A DNA stretch of 64,000 nt from Solirubrobacter phytolaccae (GTDB taxonomy: Bacteria > Actinomycetota > Thermoleophilia > Solirubrobacterales > Solirubrobacteraceae). Position numbers and translations under genes: made by a program. The stretch spans positions 62,001-126,000 of the forward strand of contig NZ_JAPDDP010000003.1 in the NCBI RefSeq assembly GCF_027587195.1, in the 5' to 3' direction. Shown here one piece after another: positions 6,628 to 57,521 of this stretch; the first letter of the stretch is position 1, and every line of letters begins with the position of its first letter. The notes under the pieces are model-generated. The model was not told the DNA's origin and did not search any database. It worked only from the letters and a program-made list of their open reading frames with translations.

Positions 6628-8237
6628 CCCCCGCGCTTGAAGGTCACGTTCTTCTTCAGGACCTGCTTCGGCTTCTTGGTGCCCTTGACCGTCTGAGTCA
6701 CGGTCAGGGTCGCCTTGAAGGACTTGAGCTTCTTGCGGAGCTTCTTTCCCTTGCTGTTGAGCTTGATCGTGACCTTCTTGCTCTGACCGCCGTTGAGCGT
6801 CACGGTCGCCTTGCCGATCGTCGTGAGCTTCGCCGCCGAGCTGTGCGCGCCCGGGAAGCCCTTGACGTACTCGCGCGTCTGGACCAGGTAGACCAGGCTG
6901 CACTTGTCCTGCGGCGGGCCGACGCAGATCTGGTTCGCGGTGATGCTGTCGCCCTTGACCGAGGGCTTGGACACGCTCGCCGTCGCCACGGTGCCGCCGG
7001 TGAGGACGGTCGTCGTGGTCGGGGTGGGCGCGGTGCCCGGGGGCGTCACGACCGTTCCCTCGCCGCCGGTCTCGGGCCCGCCGCCGCCACCGCCACCGCC
7101 GGTCGGCGGTGCGATGCCCTCGAGGCCGACGAGCCGGCCGATCGCCGTCCCGCCCGCGCCGGCGCCGCCGACGAACCAGACCGTGCCGCGCGCCGTGTCC
7201 GGCACGGCGTTGAGCGGAGCGTTGGCGCTGCCGAGCCGGTAGAGCGTGGCCTGCAGGCTCACCGCGTCCACCCGGACGATCGCGTTCGCGCTCGCCGCAC
7301 CGCCGACCGCGAGCCAGAGCCCGCCGTCCGCGCCGACCGCGATCGACCGCGGGATGCCGCCGACCAAGCCCATCGCGTCGAGCGGGTACTCGACCTGGGA
7401 GGCGCCCGGCACCATGCGCGTCACCGCGCGCTTGAGCTCGTTCGTGTACCAGACGGCTCCGTCCGGGGCGACCGCGACGTCGGTGAGCCCCGTGCCGGTG
7501 TGGCTGCCCGAGCACGGCGACCCGGCGCCGCACGGCGCGTCGTACTCCACGTAGCTGCCGCCCGTCACCTTGGCGACCCGATAGCCGGCGTTGCCCGGGT
7601 TCGCCTGCGTGAACCACGGCGTCCCGTCGGGCGCGACCGTCACGCCGCGCGGCAGCGCGTCGAACCGGATCGAGTAGTAGGTGCCGGTGTAGGTCTGCAG
7701 GCTCGGCAGCTCGCCGAGCGTGAGATCGGGCGCGACGAACGCCATCCGGCTGCCGAGCCGCTGGAACGGGTCCGCAGTCCCCGGCCCGGCGGAGTACTCC
7801 GCCATCCAGGCGCCGCCGCCGGGCGCCGCGGCGATGCCCCAGGGCGCGACCGGCACGGTTCCGAGCGTGACCGTGTCGCCGACCAGCTTGCCGACCGTGC
7901 GGTCGCTGCGGGTGAAGTACAGCCGCGCGTCCTTGGCCGACCAGGTCATGTCGCGCAGCTGCGAGGAGCAGCAGCCTTCGGCGTCCGGCGTCTTGAGGCC
8001 GGTGATCCCGGTCGAGGTCCCCGGCGTGACCTGCGCGGTGTTCACGCGGCCGATCGGCGGCTCCTCGGTGTTGTCGCTGCCGCCGAAGAAGACGTTCCCG
8101 TCCGGCGTGACCTCCAGGGCACCCGTAGTGCTCGCGATCCCCGCCGGAAGCGCGAAGTATTGGGTGGTGACGTCGGCGTGGGCAGCCGGTGTCGCGACCG
8201 CCAGACCCAGCGCCGCGACGACGAACATGGCTCTCAT
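6624..8237 (-). CDS. Secreted virginiamycin B lyase/NHL-type beta-propeller protein
   Basis: Exported protein of 537 residues with signal peptide MRAMFVVAALGLAVATPAAHA. Residues about 30-350 show repeated propeller blades of the streptogramin-lyase family (GVTVAPDGTPWFTQANPGN, DVAVAPDGAVWYTNELKRA, SIAVGADGGLWLAVGG). A Gly-rich linker near residue 380-400 is followed by a Lys-rich beta domain ending in VTFKRGG, a style of C-terminus common in secreted proteins of this kind of organism. Real antibiotic lyase activity is not implied, since most such proteins are uncharacterised sugar or ligand binders. The gene is divergent from the TetR gene 64 bp away, which may regulate it. Confidence 0.7.
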   Translation of the reverse strand: MRAMFVVAALGLAVATPAAHADVTTQYFALPAGIASTTGALEVTPDGNVFFGGSDNTEEPPIGRVNTAQVTPGTSTGITGLKTPDAEGCCSSQLRDMTWSAKDARLYFTRSDRTVGKLVGDTVTLGTVPVAPWGIAAAPGGGAWMAEYSAGPGTADPFQRLGSRMAFVAPDLTLGELPSLQTYTGTYYSIRFDALPRGVTVAPDGTPWFTQANPGNAGYRVAKVTGGSYVEYDAPCGAGSPCSGSHTGTGLTDVAVAPDGAVWYTNELKRAVTRMVPGASQVEYPLDAMGLVGGIPRSIAVGADGGLWLAVGGAASANAIVRVDAVSLQATLYRLGSANAPLNAVPDTARGTVWFVGGAGAGGTAIGRLVGLEGIAPPTGGGGGGGGPETGGEGTVVTPPGTAPTPTTTTVLTGGTVATASVSKPSVKGDSITANQICVGPPQDKCSLVYLVQTREYVKGFPGAHSSAAKLTTIGKATVTLNGGQSKKVTIKLNSKGKKLRKKLKSFKATLTVTQTVKGTKKPKQVLKKNVTFKRGG

Positions 8238-8301
8238 GGCACCGACTCTCTCGCGGCCGCCACCCGCTGTGCGCCCCCCGACCGCCTAGCATTTCGCGTT
8301 C

Positions 8302-8877
8302 ATGCCCCAGATTGACGCGCCCACAGTCGTCGAGCACCGCGCGCAGCAGCGCGAGGCGCTGCTGGACGGCGCCGAGCAGATCCTCCTCGAGGAGGGTCAC
8401 AGCGCGCTCAACTTCGGGCATCTCGGCGAGCGCACCGGGCTCGCCCGCAACTCGATCTACCGCTACTTCAAGAACCGCGACGAGCTGATCGCGGCGCTGT
8501 GCGAGCGCGACATGCCTCGCTGGCTGGAGGAGCTGCGCACCGCCATGGACGCCGCCCCGGACCCGGACGCGCGCATCGCCGCCTACGTCTCGATCCAGCT
8601 CCGGCTCGTCGTCGCGGGCGCCCACCGGCTCGCCCAGCTGCTGGGCGACGCGCCGCTCGGCCCGGCCGTCCGCGCGCGCATCAACGCGCTCGCCTACCGT
8701 CCCGCCGCGCTGCTCGAGCCCGAGCTGCACGGTGACCCCGACGCCCGGCTCGCCGCCCAGCTCGTCCAGGGCGTTGTCAACGCGGGCGTCCGCCTGCTGC
8801 ACTCGGCGTCGATCGACGACGTCGAGCCGCTCACCGTCGCCCTCGCGCAGACGCTGGTCGCCTCCCGCCGCGCATGA
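8302..8877 (+). CDS. TetR-family transcriptional regulator
   Basis: DNA-binding repressor-type protein of 191 residues. The N-terminal helix-turn-helix is clear: LDGAEQILLEEGHSALNFGH then LGERTGLARNSIYRYFKNRD at residues about 35-55, the typical TetR recognition helix region. The C-terminal ligand-binding part is all helical and not family-diagnostic. It faces the propeller gene across 64 bp, and is followed by a membrane PH-like gene through a chain of ATGA overlaps, so these are its likeliest targets or partners. Ligand unknown. Confidence 0.88.
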   Translation: MPQIDAPTVVEHRAQQREALLDGAEQILLEEGHSALNFGHLGERTGLARNSIYRYFKNRDELIAALCERDMPRWLEELRTAMDAAPDPDARIAAYVSIQLRLVVAGAHRLAQLLGDAPLGPAVRARINALAYRPAALLEPELHGDPDARLAAQLVQGVVNAGVRLLHSASIDDVEPLTVALAQTLVASRRA

Positions 8878-54710: not shown

Positions 54711-54786
54711 GTCTCTGCCAACGCGCTGTTAAGGGCGCCGCACAAACACGGACCAGCCACGATGACCAGACTGTGCCTGAGAGCGA

Positions 54787-55638
54787 TTATGTCAAGGCGA
54801 TTTCGACGTTGTGCCTCGAGACGCGCCCAGGAAGGATTGGCGCGTCGAGCGCGGCGGACATCCCAATATCCGAGATGGGAGTCGTGTACAGATCGCGACC
54901 GAACCAGGCGCGGTATCGGTCGATGATTCGCTCTGAGTCATCGACCGACGTCCCCTCGCGGGCGAGCCTTTCCTTCTGGTAGGCGACATGGCCGGTCAAC
55001 GTGCCGCGAGAGGTCAGAACTCGATGACCCGGCAGCCCCGCTGCCTCGGCGCGCTTGACGTATGCGGGGAGCGCTCGCACGTACGCGCGCTTTCCGCCGA
55101 TGAGCCTCAGCAGGATGTCGTACGTCAACACGTTGCCCGCCGGCACCTGACCTAGCACCCACGCGGCTCGGCTCGCCATTGCGTCCGGGACAACAGGGAA
55201 CCGCGCGTGATCGTCGAGCACCACCCGTCCGCCCCTAAGAATTGCGCCGTCGCGCACGACGACCCCTAGGGCGCCTCGCTCGCCGACGAGTGCCCTGTAC
55301 GTGGCGGCGTCGACGAATTTGCGGAGCGCAGAGCAGATCTCGCAGGCGTGGGTTATACGGACGACGGCGCCCGATTCGAATACAAGAACCCGACCTGAAG
55401 TCAGGTCTTCCTCGCCGAAGCCCGCCACGACGGCGTTCGCACGAAGAGAGCACGCGTCGGTGCCGAGACGATCTAGCACTTCCTGCCGGCAGATCAGTAC
55501 CTGTCGCGGCCCGAGTGGACCTCCATTGCAATCGCCGAGCAACCCGACCCCGACTCGAGCGTCTAGCGCCGGCCGCGGTTCCATTGGACAACCCGCCTTG
55601 GGCTTCACAAGTACCTCAGTGACCGTTCCGACCTGCAC
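54787..55638 (-). CDS. MOSC domain fused to an alkyltransferase-like (ATL) domain lacking the acceptor cysteine
   Basis: Protein of 283 residues. Residues about 1-140 are a MOSC domain (GVGLLGDCNGGPLGPRQVLI; NAVVAGFGEEDLTSGRVLVF; VVRITHACEICSALRKFVD), a fold that binds molybdenum cofactor or moves sulfur. Residues about 150-235 resemble the O6-methylguanine methyltransferase DNA-binding domain (RAAWVLGQVPAGNVLTYDIL; then GLPGHRVLTSRGTLTGH). The active-site PCHRV is PGHRV, so it cannot accept an alkyl group, like ATL proteins that flag lesions for repair. Start GTG 55638. It is the last of three minus-strand genes in the low-GC island. Confidence 0.75.
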   Translation of the reverse strand: MQVGTVTEVLVKPKAGCPMEPRPALDARVGVGLLGDCNGGPLGPRQVLICRQEVLDRLGTDACSLRANAVVAGFGEEDLTSGRVLVFESGAVVRITHACEICSALRKFVDAATYRALVGERGALGVVVRDGAILRGGRVVLDDHARFPVVPDAMASRAAWVLGQVPAGNVLTYDILLRLIGGKRAYVRALPAYVKRAEAAGLPGHRVLTSRGTLTGHVAYQKERLAREGTSVDDSERIIDRYRAWFGRDLYTTPISDIGMSAALDAPILPGRVSRHNVEIALT

Positions 55639-55680
55639 GAGACAACTGTTCGCCGGGTGAGGCGTGCGTCCTCCGTTCGT

Positions 55681-56058
55681 CTACTTGACTGAGAACACGA
55701 TCGGCGCAGGAGACAGATCGAGATCGATCACGCGTTGCCCGGCCGACTCTGCAATTCGTCTGGCGACGGCCCGGCGCGACTCGTCCGGACCGCCGATGAG
55801 ACACGTGCGGTGCCTAAGGGCAAGCCCAGCCGCCCAGGTGTCGCCCTCTCTGCCTTTCGCCTCCAACAAGGAGGGCCGCGAAACGTAGTACGTATCGATC
55901 TGTACACACGTCCGCGCGATCTGAATCCCTTCGGCCTCAGATCGAAGATCTAGGACAAGTTCGATGTCTTCCCCCGAGAACAACTGCGCGAGTCGCTCGT
56001 CGTCGCCGGCCTGCGCCGTAAACAACGAGCGATTGAAACGAGCCTGATGCCCTGTCAT
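55681..56058 (-). CDS. Small protein resembling a degenerate DUF488 domain
   Basis: Protein of 125 residues from ATG 56058, whose first bases overlap the stop of the upstream gene (ATGA). By eye its start (RSLFTAQAGDDERLAQLF... IELVLDLRS) parallels the DUF488 start of the divergent neighbour (TIGHSHHDVALVVSLL... IKRVVDIRS). Its end (TCLIGGPDESRRAVARR) parallels that neighbour's TALFCLEEEPERCHRY, but without the Cys-His. It may be a non-catalytic partner of that DUF488 protein. This is my inference from pattern only; no database support. Confidence 0.55.
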   Translation of the reverse strand: MTGHQARFNRSLFTAQAGDDERLAQLFSGEDIELVLDLRSEAEGIQIARTCVQIDTYYVSRPSLLEAKGREGDTWAAGLALRHRTCLIGGPDESRRAVARRIAESAGQRVIDLDLSPAPIVFSVK

Positions 56059-56873
56059 TCGCCGGTCACCTCTCTCCAGGTTGCCCGTGGGACGGCAAGG
56101 GTGACCCTGGCTTTCCCACGCGCGTCGTACTCGGCGCCGAGCCGCGCCTCGCGGCTCAGTTTCGTTTCGCGCCACCATTCGGCCCGAACCTGAGGCCTTA
56201 CTCCCGTGAGCGGAACATCATCCATGTTCGCGCGCAGATCCGGGTCTGGCCGAGCTGGCTCCTTTGCTCGAATAGCGAGTTCGCTGAATGGCGACCATCG
56301 AGTCGGAGCCTGCCCGGGGTGCCTCCCGAAGCCGAGAATCTCCGACCAGTGGTCGAGTGCAACCGCCGTGCGGAGGCTCACACGCACGATCTCGCCGAGG
56401 TCGGCGTCTTGGTCGGCTCCAAGGACACGCAAGTCCCATCCTTCCACGGCTCCGAGCGCCGCGACAAGACTCGCCAGCTCAAACCCCGCATCGTCCGCAC
56501 GCGGCACGATCAGACTCAGGATGTCGGTTTCGGGCGCTCGAATACGCGCCGCGACATATGCAGCGAGACTTGCCACGTCGCCATCAGCATCGACATCAAT
56601 TGCCTCCCAGCCATGTTGCGGGCGTGTCTCGGAGAGATAGCCCGCGAAAAGGCAACCGCTGTGACCCCCGGAGTACCAGTGCGCCTGCACGGCCACGACC
56701 AGTTCATCGTCCGAAACAAGATCGCGCTCACACCGGACGAGTCCACGACGTCGCAGTGCGACGACATAGTCGTGTCGAGTCGGGTACACGAACTCATTTC
56801 CAGCGCCGCTGTCGTAGACCCCCGTCGGGACAAGGGCTTCGAGCGCAGATTGGATTTCGTGGTTCGTCCTCAT
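56055..56873 (-). CDS. Hypothetical protein, first gene of the island operon
   Basis: Protein of 272 residues from ATG 56873 (MRTNHEIQSALEALVPTGVY). Not recognised. Visible features: an N-terminal helical part with a possible winged-helix look (RHDYVVALRRRGLVRCERDL), a central acidic region (WEAIDVDADGDVASLAAYVA), a strand-helix stretch (DILSLIVPRADDAGFELASL), and an Arg-rich C-terminal beta tail (ARVTLAVPRATWREVTGE). Base composition is lower in GC than the genes outside the island. Coupled to the 125-residue gene by ATGA overlap and divergent from the DUF488 gene across 48 bp. Confidence 0.6.
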   Translation of the reverse strand: MRTNHEIQSALEALVPTGVYDSGAGNEFVYPTRHDYVVALRRRGLVRCERDLVSDDELVVAVQAHWYSGGHSGCLFAGYLSETRPQHGWEAIDVDADGDVASLAAYVAARIRAPETDILSLIVPRADDAGFELASLVAALGAVEGWDLRVLGADQDADLGEIVRVSLRTAVALDHWSEILGFGRHPGQAPTRWSPFSELAIRAKEPARPDPDLRANMDDVPLTGVRPQVRAEWWRETKLSREARLGAEYDARGKARVTLAVPRATWREVTGE

Positions 56874-56888
56874 CGATCGGTACGATCG
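56874..56888. promoter_or_regulatory. CGATCG-GTA-CGATCG double palindrome in the island divergent promoter
   Basis: Two CGATCG hexamers separated by GTA, in the 48-bp gap between the divergent 272-residue gene and the DUF488 gene, directly against the start of the former. GATACA at 56911-56916 could be a -10 element for a leaderless DUF488 transcript. A regulator site is plausible but unproven. Confidence 0.4.
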
Positions 56889-56921
56889 TTTTGAGGAGAC
56901 TTTACGTAGCGATACAGACAG

Positions 56922-57521
56922 ATGCCGAAACGACGAGAGCAACATGGGTCCACGCGGATCTGGACGATTGGACACTCTCACCACGATGTGGCGCTGGTCG
57001 TATCGCTACTGCGAGCGCATGACATCAAACGCGTCGTCGACATCCGCTCCCGTCCGGCATCGCAGTGGGCGCATCAGTTCGACAAGGTCCGCATAGAACC
57101 GACACTGCACGCCGCCGAGTTCGCCTATAGCTGGCGTGGCGAACTGCTAGGCCAGCGTCCTGAGGGAACGGAGTTCTACGACGAGGACGGATGCACGCTG
57201 TATGACCGCGTAGTCGCTAGACCGGGATTCTCGGATGAATATGACGCGCTAAAGGCAACTGCTAACGAACAGCGGACTGCGCTGTTCTGCCTTGAGGAGG
57301 AGCCCGAGCGCTGTCATCGCTACCACATGCTGGGCATCATGCTCACGCGCGATGGGTTCGAGGTGCTCCATATTCGCAAGACCGGTCGCGTCGAGTCTCA
57401 GAAGGACGTTTTCCTTCGACTGGGCGGTGAGCAGCGGTCACTGCTGGACGCCCCCAAACCGTGGCGTTCGCCGATGCCCATGGAAGGCGGGCACGGCGTG
57501 GCCGGAAAACCAACTCGCTGA
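56922..57521 (+). CDS. DUF488-family protein
   Basis: Protein of 199 residues, a Rossmann-like fold of unknown activity. Family hallmarks: TRIWTIGHSHHDVALVVSLL, KRVVDIRSRPASQWAHQFD and the Cys-His motif in LEEEPERCHRYHMLGIML. The extra C-terminal 30 residues are unconserved. It belongs to the island of lower GC (hand counts: 57% and 60% in two 60-base lines) and is divergent from a gene pair that includes what looks like a degenerate DUF488 copy. The gap to the convergent Crp gene holds a 6-bp GTCCGT/ACGGAC stem. Confidence 0.82.
   Translation: MPKRREQHGSTRIWTIGHSHHDVALVVSLLRAHDIKRVVDIRSRPASQWAHQFDKVRIEPTLHAAEFAYSWRGELLGQRPEGTEFYDEDGCTLYDRVVARPGFSDEYDALKATANEQRTALFCLEEEPERCHRYHMLGIMLTRDGFEVLHIRKTGRVESQKDVFLRLGGEQRSLLDAPKPWRSPMPMEGGHGVAGKPTR

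Follow-up and report, generated by a model that had tools for sequence, protein, structure and literature searches.

A MOSC domain fused to a cysteine-less alkyltransferase-like domain in Solirubrobacter phytolaccae, member of a family found in several bacterial phyla

The fusion gene and its surroundings

In the window (the whole 64,000-nucleotide stretch of Solirubrobacter phytolaccae DNA that was analysed), the reverse strand carries a gene for a real two-domain protein in which an alkyltransferase-like (ATL) domain comes immediately after a MOSC domain (Table 1). The base composition of its codon positions is that of coding DNA (GC1/2/3 = 0.72/0.50/0.73). Pfam placed the MGMT DNA-binding domain (PF01035) at residues 161-229 with 32.9 bits (cut-off 27) and the MOSC domain (PF03473) at residues 60-140 with 18.6 bits, which is below the cut-off of 22.7. 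The MOSC assignment is independent of this weak match, since PF03473 was found in all 27 family members scanned singly (best E 7.8e-11) and the N-terminal half of the structural model corresponds to MOSC structures; the MGMT domain was matched in 25 of the 27 members scanned in the same way.

Table 1. Positions in the window of the fusion gene, of its domains and key residues, and of the genes upstream of it
Feature	Coordinates	Strand	Details and basis
MOSC-ATL fusion gene	54787..55638	-	283 aa; GTG start at 55638, stop at 54787
MOSC domain, residues 1-145	55204..55638	-	VIA-align; profile-to-YiiM alignment
C99-E-I-C102	55333..55344	-	C102 aligned to the invariant MOSC cysteine, YiiM C120
ATL-like predicted DNA-binding domain, residues 151-247	54898..55188	-	VIA-align; profile match to Atl1
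R188, counterpart of the Atl1 R39 arginine finger	55075..55077	-	Family alignment
P203-G-H-R206 where PCHR is expected	55021..55032	-	Sequence; family alignment
Orphan ORF upstream of the fusion (likely start inside)	55681..56178	-	Ends 42 bases before the fusion
Orphan ORF further upstream (likely start inside)	56055..56984	-	Overlaps ORF 55681..56178
DUF488 gene, divergent	56922..57521	+	PF04343, 3.6e-18; PADLOC candidate PDC-M45B, 2.4e-37

The AlphaFold2 model, built with 27 related sequences, had a mean pLDDT of 87.1 and a pTM of 0.83, and low confidence was limited to the tail, from residue 257 onward. When the model was compared with solved structures using VIA-align 2, where unrelated structures begin at Z 7.9, the N-terminal half aligned with YuaD (Z 18.1, rmsd 2.0, 144 residues), human mARC1 (Z 14.4, rmsd 2.5, 140 residues) and YiiM (Z 14.3, rmsd 3.6, 150 residues). 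The C-terminal half aligned with the Vibrio parahaemolyticus ATL (Z 12.1, rmsd 2.7, 97 residues), DNA-bound Schizosaccharomyces pombe Atl1 (Z 12.1, rmsd 2.4, 96 residues) and human AGT (Z 10.7, rmsd 1.8, 80 residues). At the place where YiiM has its C-terminal three-helix (3-alpha) domain, the model resembles ATL structures, although alignments with YiiM run on into residues 158-165. Atl1 was also the closest solved relative in the sequence-profile comparison (E 1.8e-12). The protein is thus predicted to carry a MOSC fold and a C-terminal fold of the MGMT/ATL type. The original prediction of a MOSC domain and a cysteine-less alkyltransferase-like domain with PGHR in a single ORF is borne out by Pfam, by the model and by the sequence; the same prediction had singled out failure of the C-terminal region to fold like the MGMT domain as what would speak against it, and in the model this region does adopt the MGMT/ATL fold (Z 12.1 against Atl1 in its DNA complex).

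The orphan ORF next to the fusion is probably part of the same transcript. Neither orphan ORF had a match in Pfam (E under 0.1), NCBIfam, PADLOC or PHROGs, nor a relative in plasmids; a comparison of the distal one with 295 other genomes of the phylum found no relative at E 1e-6, and for the proximal one, considered as a candidate degenerate DUF488, there was only an 18-residue match (E 0.046). The four-gene block formed by the fusion, the two orphans and the DUF488 gene (54750-57520) has a GC content of 0.63, against a window median of 0.71, and its GC3 of 0.67-0.73 is lower than the 0.94-0.96 of three coding stretches on its flanks; because of this low GC and GC3, the block was most likely acquired horizontally. 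The repeats flanking the low-GC block are short matches only, possibly due to chance, and the window has no tRNA that would mark an insertion site. The adjacency to DUF488 is local to the window, and the fusion has no neighbour that is shared between phyla: a fixed operon partner was ruled out, as recurrent neighbours were limited to related cyanobacterial genomes or to general protein families.

A family of fused proteins in several phyla

A search for the two-domain architecture, which the original prediction had proposed as a check, revealed a stable family with 51 distinct members in Cyanobacteria, Chloroflexota, Actinomycetota, Bacteroidota and Pseudomonadota. Conservation across several phyla rules out the chance joining of two genes. 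Repeated entries were counted once (L016 = L043, L072 = L060, and L102 and L103 = L052 and L053). Left out of the 51 were L048 and L014, which are the same plasmid gene of Calothrix brevissima NIES-22 with an internal stop codon in the ATL half; L058 of Nostoc sp. FACHB-152, whose C-terminal half is replaced and which coexists with an intact copy (L027); L061, at a contig edge; L104, a frameshifted fusion copy of a Chloroflexota genome; hit H3; and L062, in which a MOSC domain is joined to another domain and a stop lies within the match. The last of these, at about 7335-8426 in an Oscillospiraceae MAG, appears by eye to join MoaC to MOSC, another unusual fusion.

When genomes were scanned with a five-row alignment, 46 loci were obtained, most of them from Nostocales and the others from Herpetosiphon, one Bacteroidota MAG and Pseudomonadota MAGs, and the fused protein was counted at 42 of them; a scan whose only query was the window protein yielded no confirmed relative in 198 genome stretches. 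Within the window's own phylum, Actinomycetota, 396 genomes contained one further full-length fusion (G441, E 1.5e-33), and the fusion was absent from the six other genomes of the same genus that were searched. In the phylum of member L060 (398 genomes, 30 loci examined) the fused form was found only in G454, the genome of L060, and in G748, the remaining loci being mostly stand-alone MOSC proteins plus two ATL/MGMT proteins. The 30 loci examined in the Herpetosiphon phylum (251 genomes) comprised two Herpetosiphon genomes with the fusion, one frameshifted copy and otherwise stand-alone MOSC proteins. No stand-alone MOSC gene adjoining a stand-alone ATL gene was seen within flanks of about 1.5 kb in Chloroflexota or in the phylum of L060; one genome has the halves in two overlapping frames, which looks like a frameshift. 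Small stand-alone MOSC proteins of the CxPC type are frequent in Chloroflexota genomes (L105-L127 and others), some of them being among the closest stand-alone relatives found. Phage records had no match to the fusion, and none of 48 pattern matches in viral contigs was confirmed. On plasmids it occurred in 9 of 72,556 records, every one cyanobacterial, where it is annotated as 'MGMT family protein' in five (four RefSeq records and one other) and as 'hypothetical protein' in four.

In a quick tree built from the MOSC half, with 23 of the 51 fused rows and 53 stand-alone rows, all 23 fused rows fell on one side of one weakly supported branch (SH-aLRT 65), and the window branch was long; this topology allows a single origin of the fusion without proving it. 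Selection was estimated from 33 Nostocales rows, using pairs with dS of 0.1-1.2 (425 for MOSC, 327 for ATL and 398 for the tail, of 528 pairs). The median dN/dS was 0.217 for the MOSC half and 0.189 for the ATL half, so both halves are under purifying selection; the tail gave 0.57.

In the MOSC half, C99, C102, R45, N68 and R94 are present in all 51 members. N68 aligns with N87 of YiiM, a modelled Moco contact, and C102 with YiiM C120, which is reported to be conserved throughout the superfamily (PMC5818509). R94, invariant in the fused form, was found in only 4 of the 53 stand-alone MOSC relatives; F97 is present in 48/51 fused members and 0/53 stand-alone proteins, and K12 in 49/51 and 1/53, respectively. 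The fused MOSC half has therefore its own signature beside the catalytic loop, and judging from these alignments it looks as if it were adapted to its ATL partner.

The window copy deviates from the family at P101, F97 (His in this protein) and E67, and has a long terminal branch in the tree (2.39); together with the foreign base composition of the gene, these traits would fit an acquired gene that is losing a function kept by the family elsewhere. We consider such decay quite unlikely, as the reading frame is open, the codon positions are of the coding type and every family-invariant residue is retained.

The acceptor position of the ATL half was occupied by Ile in 22 members, Val in 18, Leu in five, and Ala, Gly and Ser in one each, with a gap in three; neither Cys nor Trp was seen at this position in any of the 51. 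Since the acceptor residue varies and is never Cys or Trp, the Gly, to which the original prediction had drawn attention, is peculiar to the window copy, the only member of the 51 that has it, and the family trait is the loss of the transfer chemistry. A special catalytic role for Gly was rejected, as the position holds a different residue or is a gap in 50 of the 51 members. Other proteins of this host take care of alkyl transfer, since its genome encodes three PCHR alkyltransferases; it also encodes two PWWR ATL-like proteins. A third cysteine-less ATL-like protein of this genome (L068, contig C91) stands alone and has GAHR at the acceptor motif.

Of the residues with a reported role in Atl1, where R39 is the arginine finger and Y25 the base-flip tyrosine (PMC10779285), the first has a counterpart in 51/51 members and the second, Y173 in the window protein, in 45/51. 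The His of PxHR is kept in 47/51 members and its Arg in 48/51. No counterpart of Atl1 R69 was assigned, as the alignment is uncertain by one column.

Three members on the Pseudomonadota side (L059, L060 and L073) stop before the PxHR pocket and retain the arginine-finger helix and the MOSC cysteines; no PxHR remnant was seen in their downstream frames. In the model of L060 (pLDDT 88.2), the MOSC barrel is succeeded by three helices, where pLDDT is roughly 70 to 85. No ATL chain was listed when this model was run in VIA, which is not counter-evidence because the MOSC half fills the list. These shortened members suggest a division of labour in which MOSC does the work and the ATL part holds or opens DNA.

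A possible N-reductase directed at DNA

MOSC proteins are reported to be common molybdenum enzymes with uncertain physiological substrates (PMC10637980). According to a review on mARC, every MOSC protein tested in vitro was N-reductive, a cysteine binds Mo in mARC and may do so in every MOSC protein, and protection against 6-HAP and similar N-hydroxylated bases is provided by mARC, YcbX and YiiM; the review also cautions that N-reduction might not be the physiological role of these proteins (PMC10637980). ATLs, for their part, bind DNA at O6-alkylguanine, are by themselves without repair activity and contact UvrA and UvrC (PMC10779285). Putting together the reported N-reduction by MOSC proteins and the binding of DNA lesions by ATLs, we tentatively propose, as the likeliest explanation though at somewhat less than even confidence, that the fusion is a Moco-dependent N-reductase kept on DNA by a non-catalytic ATL module and acting on N-oxygenated base damage. 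The ATL half, incapable of alkyl transfer, would bind DNA and push a base out by means of the arginine finger, while the MOSC half, carrying Mo-molybdopterin on C102, would reduce an N-oxygenated (e.g. N-hydroxylated) base, in or near DNA, back to the amine. The binding of Moco, of DNA and of the lesion, as well as the substrate, the electron donor and a reaction on DNA, are what we infer here.

The occurrence of MoaC in 12 of the 13 fusion hosts tested (one host MAG lacked it) lends only slight support to this proposal, because 11 of 14 control genomes also have it. Across the members' neighbourhoods no electron-transfer partner adjoins the fusion gene. A limit on the N-reductase proposal is that one base could not occupy the MOSC and the ATL pockets simultaneously. 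The divergence of the window copy also weighs against it. In its strictest version, which we consider unlikely, the arginine finger would flip N6-hydroxyadenine or N4-hydroxycytosine and the MOSC site would restore the normal base within DNA, a direct reversal without excision. To our knowledge, no molybdenum enzyme acts on bases in DNA, and if true, Mo-dependent direct reversal would represent a new class of repair.

The ATL half might instead be an ordinary lesion sensor that passes damage on to nucleotide excision repair, in the manner of Atl1 and the E. coli ATL, with the MOSC half acting separately on free N-hydroxylated nucleotides or being a mere cap that replaces the missing N-terminal domain of AGT. 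The retained His and Arg of PxHR agree with a sensor, as do the reported properties of ATLs, which bind O6-alkylguanine, do not repair it alone and contact UvrA and UvrC; furthermore, fusions of endonuclease V with AGT or ATL indicate that such modules do join other repair functions (PMC10779285). We nevertheless regard this explanation as rather unlikely, given that a small or aliphatic residue takes the place of the usual ATL Trp in 48 of the 48 members having the position, that three members are without the pocket, and that three PCHR proteins and three further cysteine-less ones are already present in the host. The variant in which MOSC is a cap is further at odds with the conservation, which is highest in the residues around the MOSC cysteine.

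Since in the shortened members the ATL part consists only of helices and the arginine finger, a regulator could also be imagined, in which an ATL-like helix-turn-helix binds DNA sites and MOSC responds to the redox state, to Moco or to an N-oxygenated compound. A regulator seems very unlikely to us, as no constant target gene adjoins the fusion, and the arginine finger, present in all members, and PxHR, present in most, are base-flipping features that would be superfluous for a reader of sequence.

The original prediction had coupled the recognition of a modified base, for example one containing sulfur, to a redox or sulfur step. The redox part agrees in outline with the reported activity of MOSC proteins (PMC10637980, PMC5818509), whereas the sulfur part found no backing. 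That the fusion would read a sulfur-containing DNA base and perform a sulfur step recalls the initial prediction of MOSC as a sulfur carrier, but the MOSC proteins tested are reported to be molybdenum N-reductases (PMC10637980). Nothing was found that points to a sulfur-containing base: no DNA-sulfur gene was recognised beside the window gene and there is no recurring neighbour, and we consider this reading extremely improbable.

Being kept in bacteria of several phyla, the fusion may be an unrecognised DNA-protection enzyme. By its conserved union with a damage reader, one branch of the MOSC proteins would be directed at DNA, and through the fusion the repair of N-oxygenated bases within DNA becomes a question open to direct testing. 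The proteins should be easy to obtain, as the members include cultured cyanobacteria and Herpetosiphon.

Comparison with known systems

The fusion combines two domains of known kinds in an arrangement that we could not find described; most subscription papers lay outside our search, so a description may exist. The available part of a MOSC review names MoaB and XdhC as rare extra fusions, and the MOSC-ATL fusion is not named in the available part of a molybdoprotein survey (PMC6147048).

With YiiM, YcbX, mARC and YuaD, the family shares the MOSC barrel, the superfamily cysteine (C102) and an Asn, N68, at the position of YiiM N87. It differs from them by the additional C99, which forms a CxxC motif, and by the signature R94, F97 and K12, and it has a predicted ATL domain where that superfamily has a 3-alpha, MOSC_N or ferredoxin domain. 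Its likeness to S. pombe Atl1 and E. coli ATL lies in the fold, the arginine finger and, mostly, the base-flip tyrosine and PxHR. In contrast to these proteins, the position of Trp56 is occupied by Ile, Val, Leu, Gly, Ala or Ser, a MOSC domain is attached and three members have no pocket; Trp in place of the cysteine is a trait of most, not all, ATLs, and of none of the 51 fused proteins. MGMT and Ogt share with the family the fold of the C-terminal domain and the His and Arg of PxHR; in the fusion, however, the acceptor cysteine is missing from every member and the N-terminal domain of AGT is absent. A parallel in architecture is provided by the archaeal AGT-EndoV and ATL-EndoV proteins, in which an AGT or ATL module is likewise joined to an enzyme domain (PMC10779285), the partner in the family described here being MOSC and not an endonuclease.
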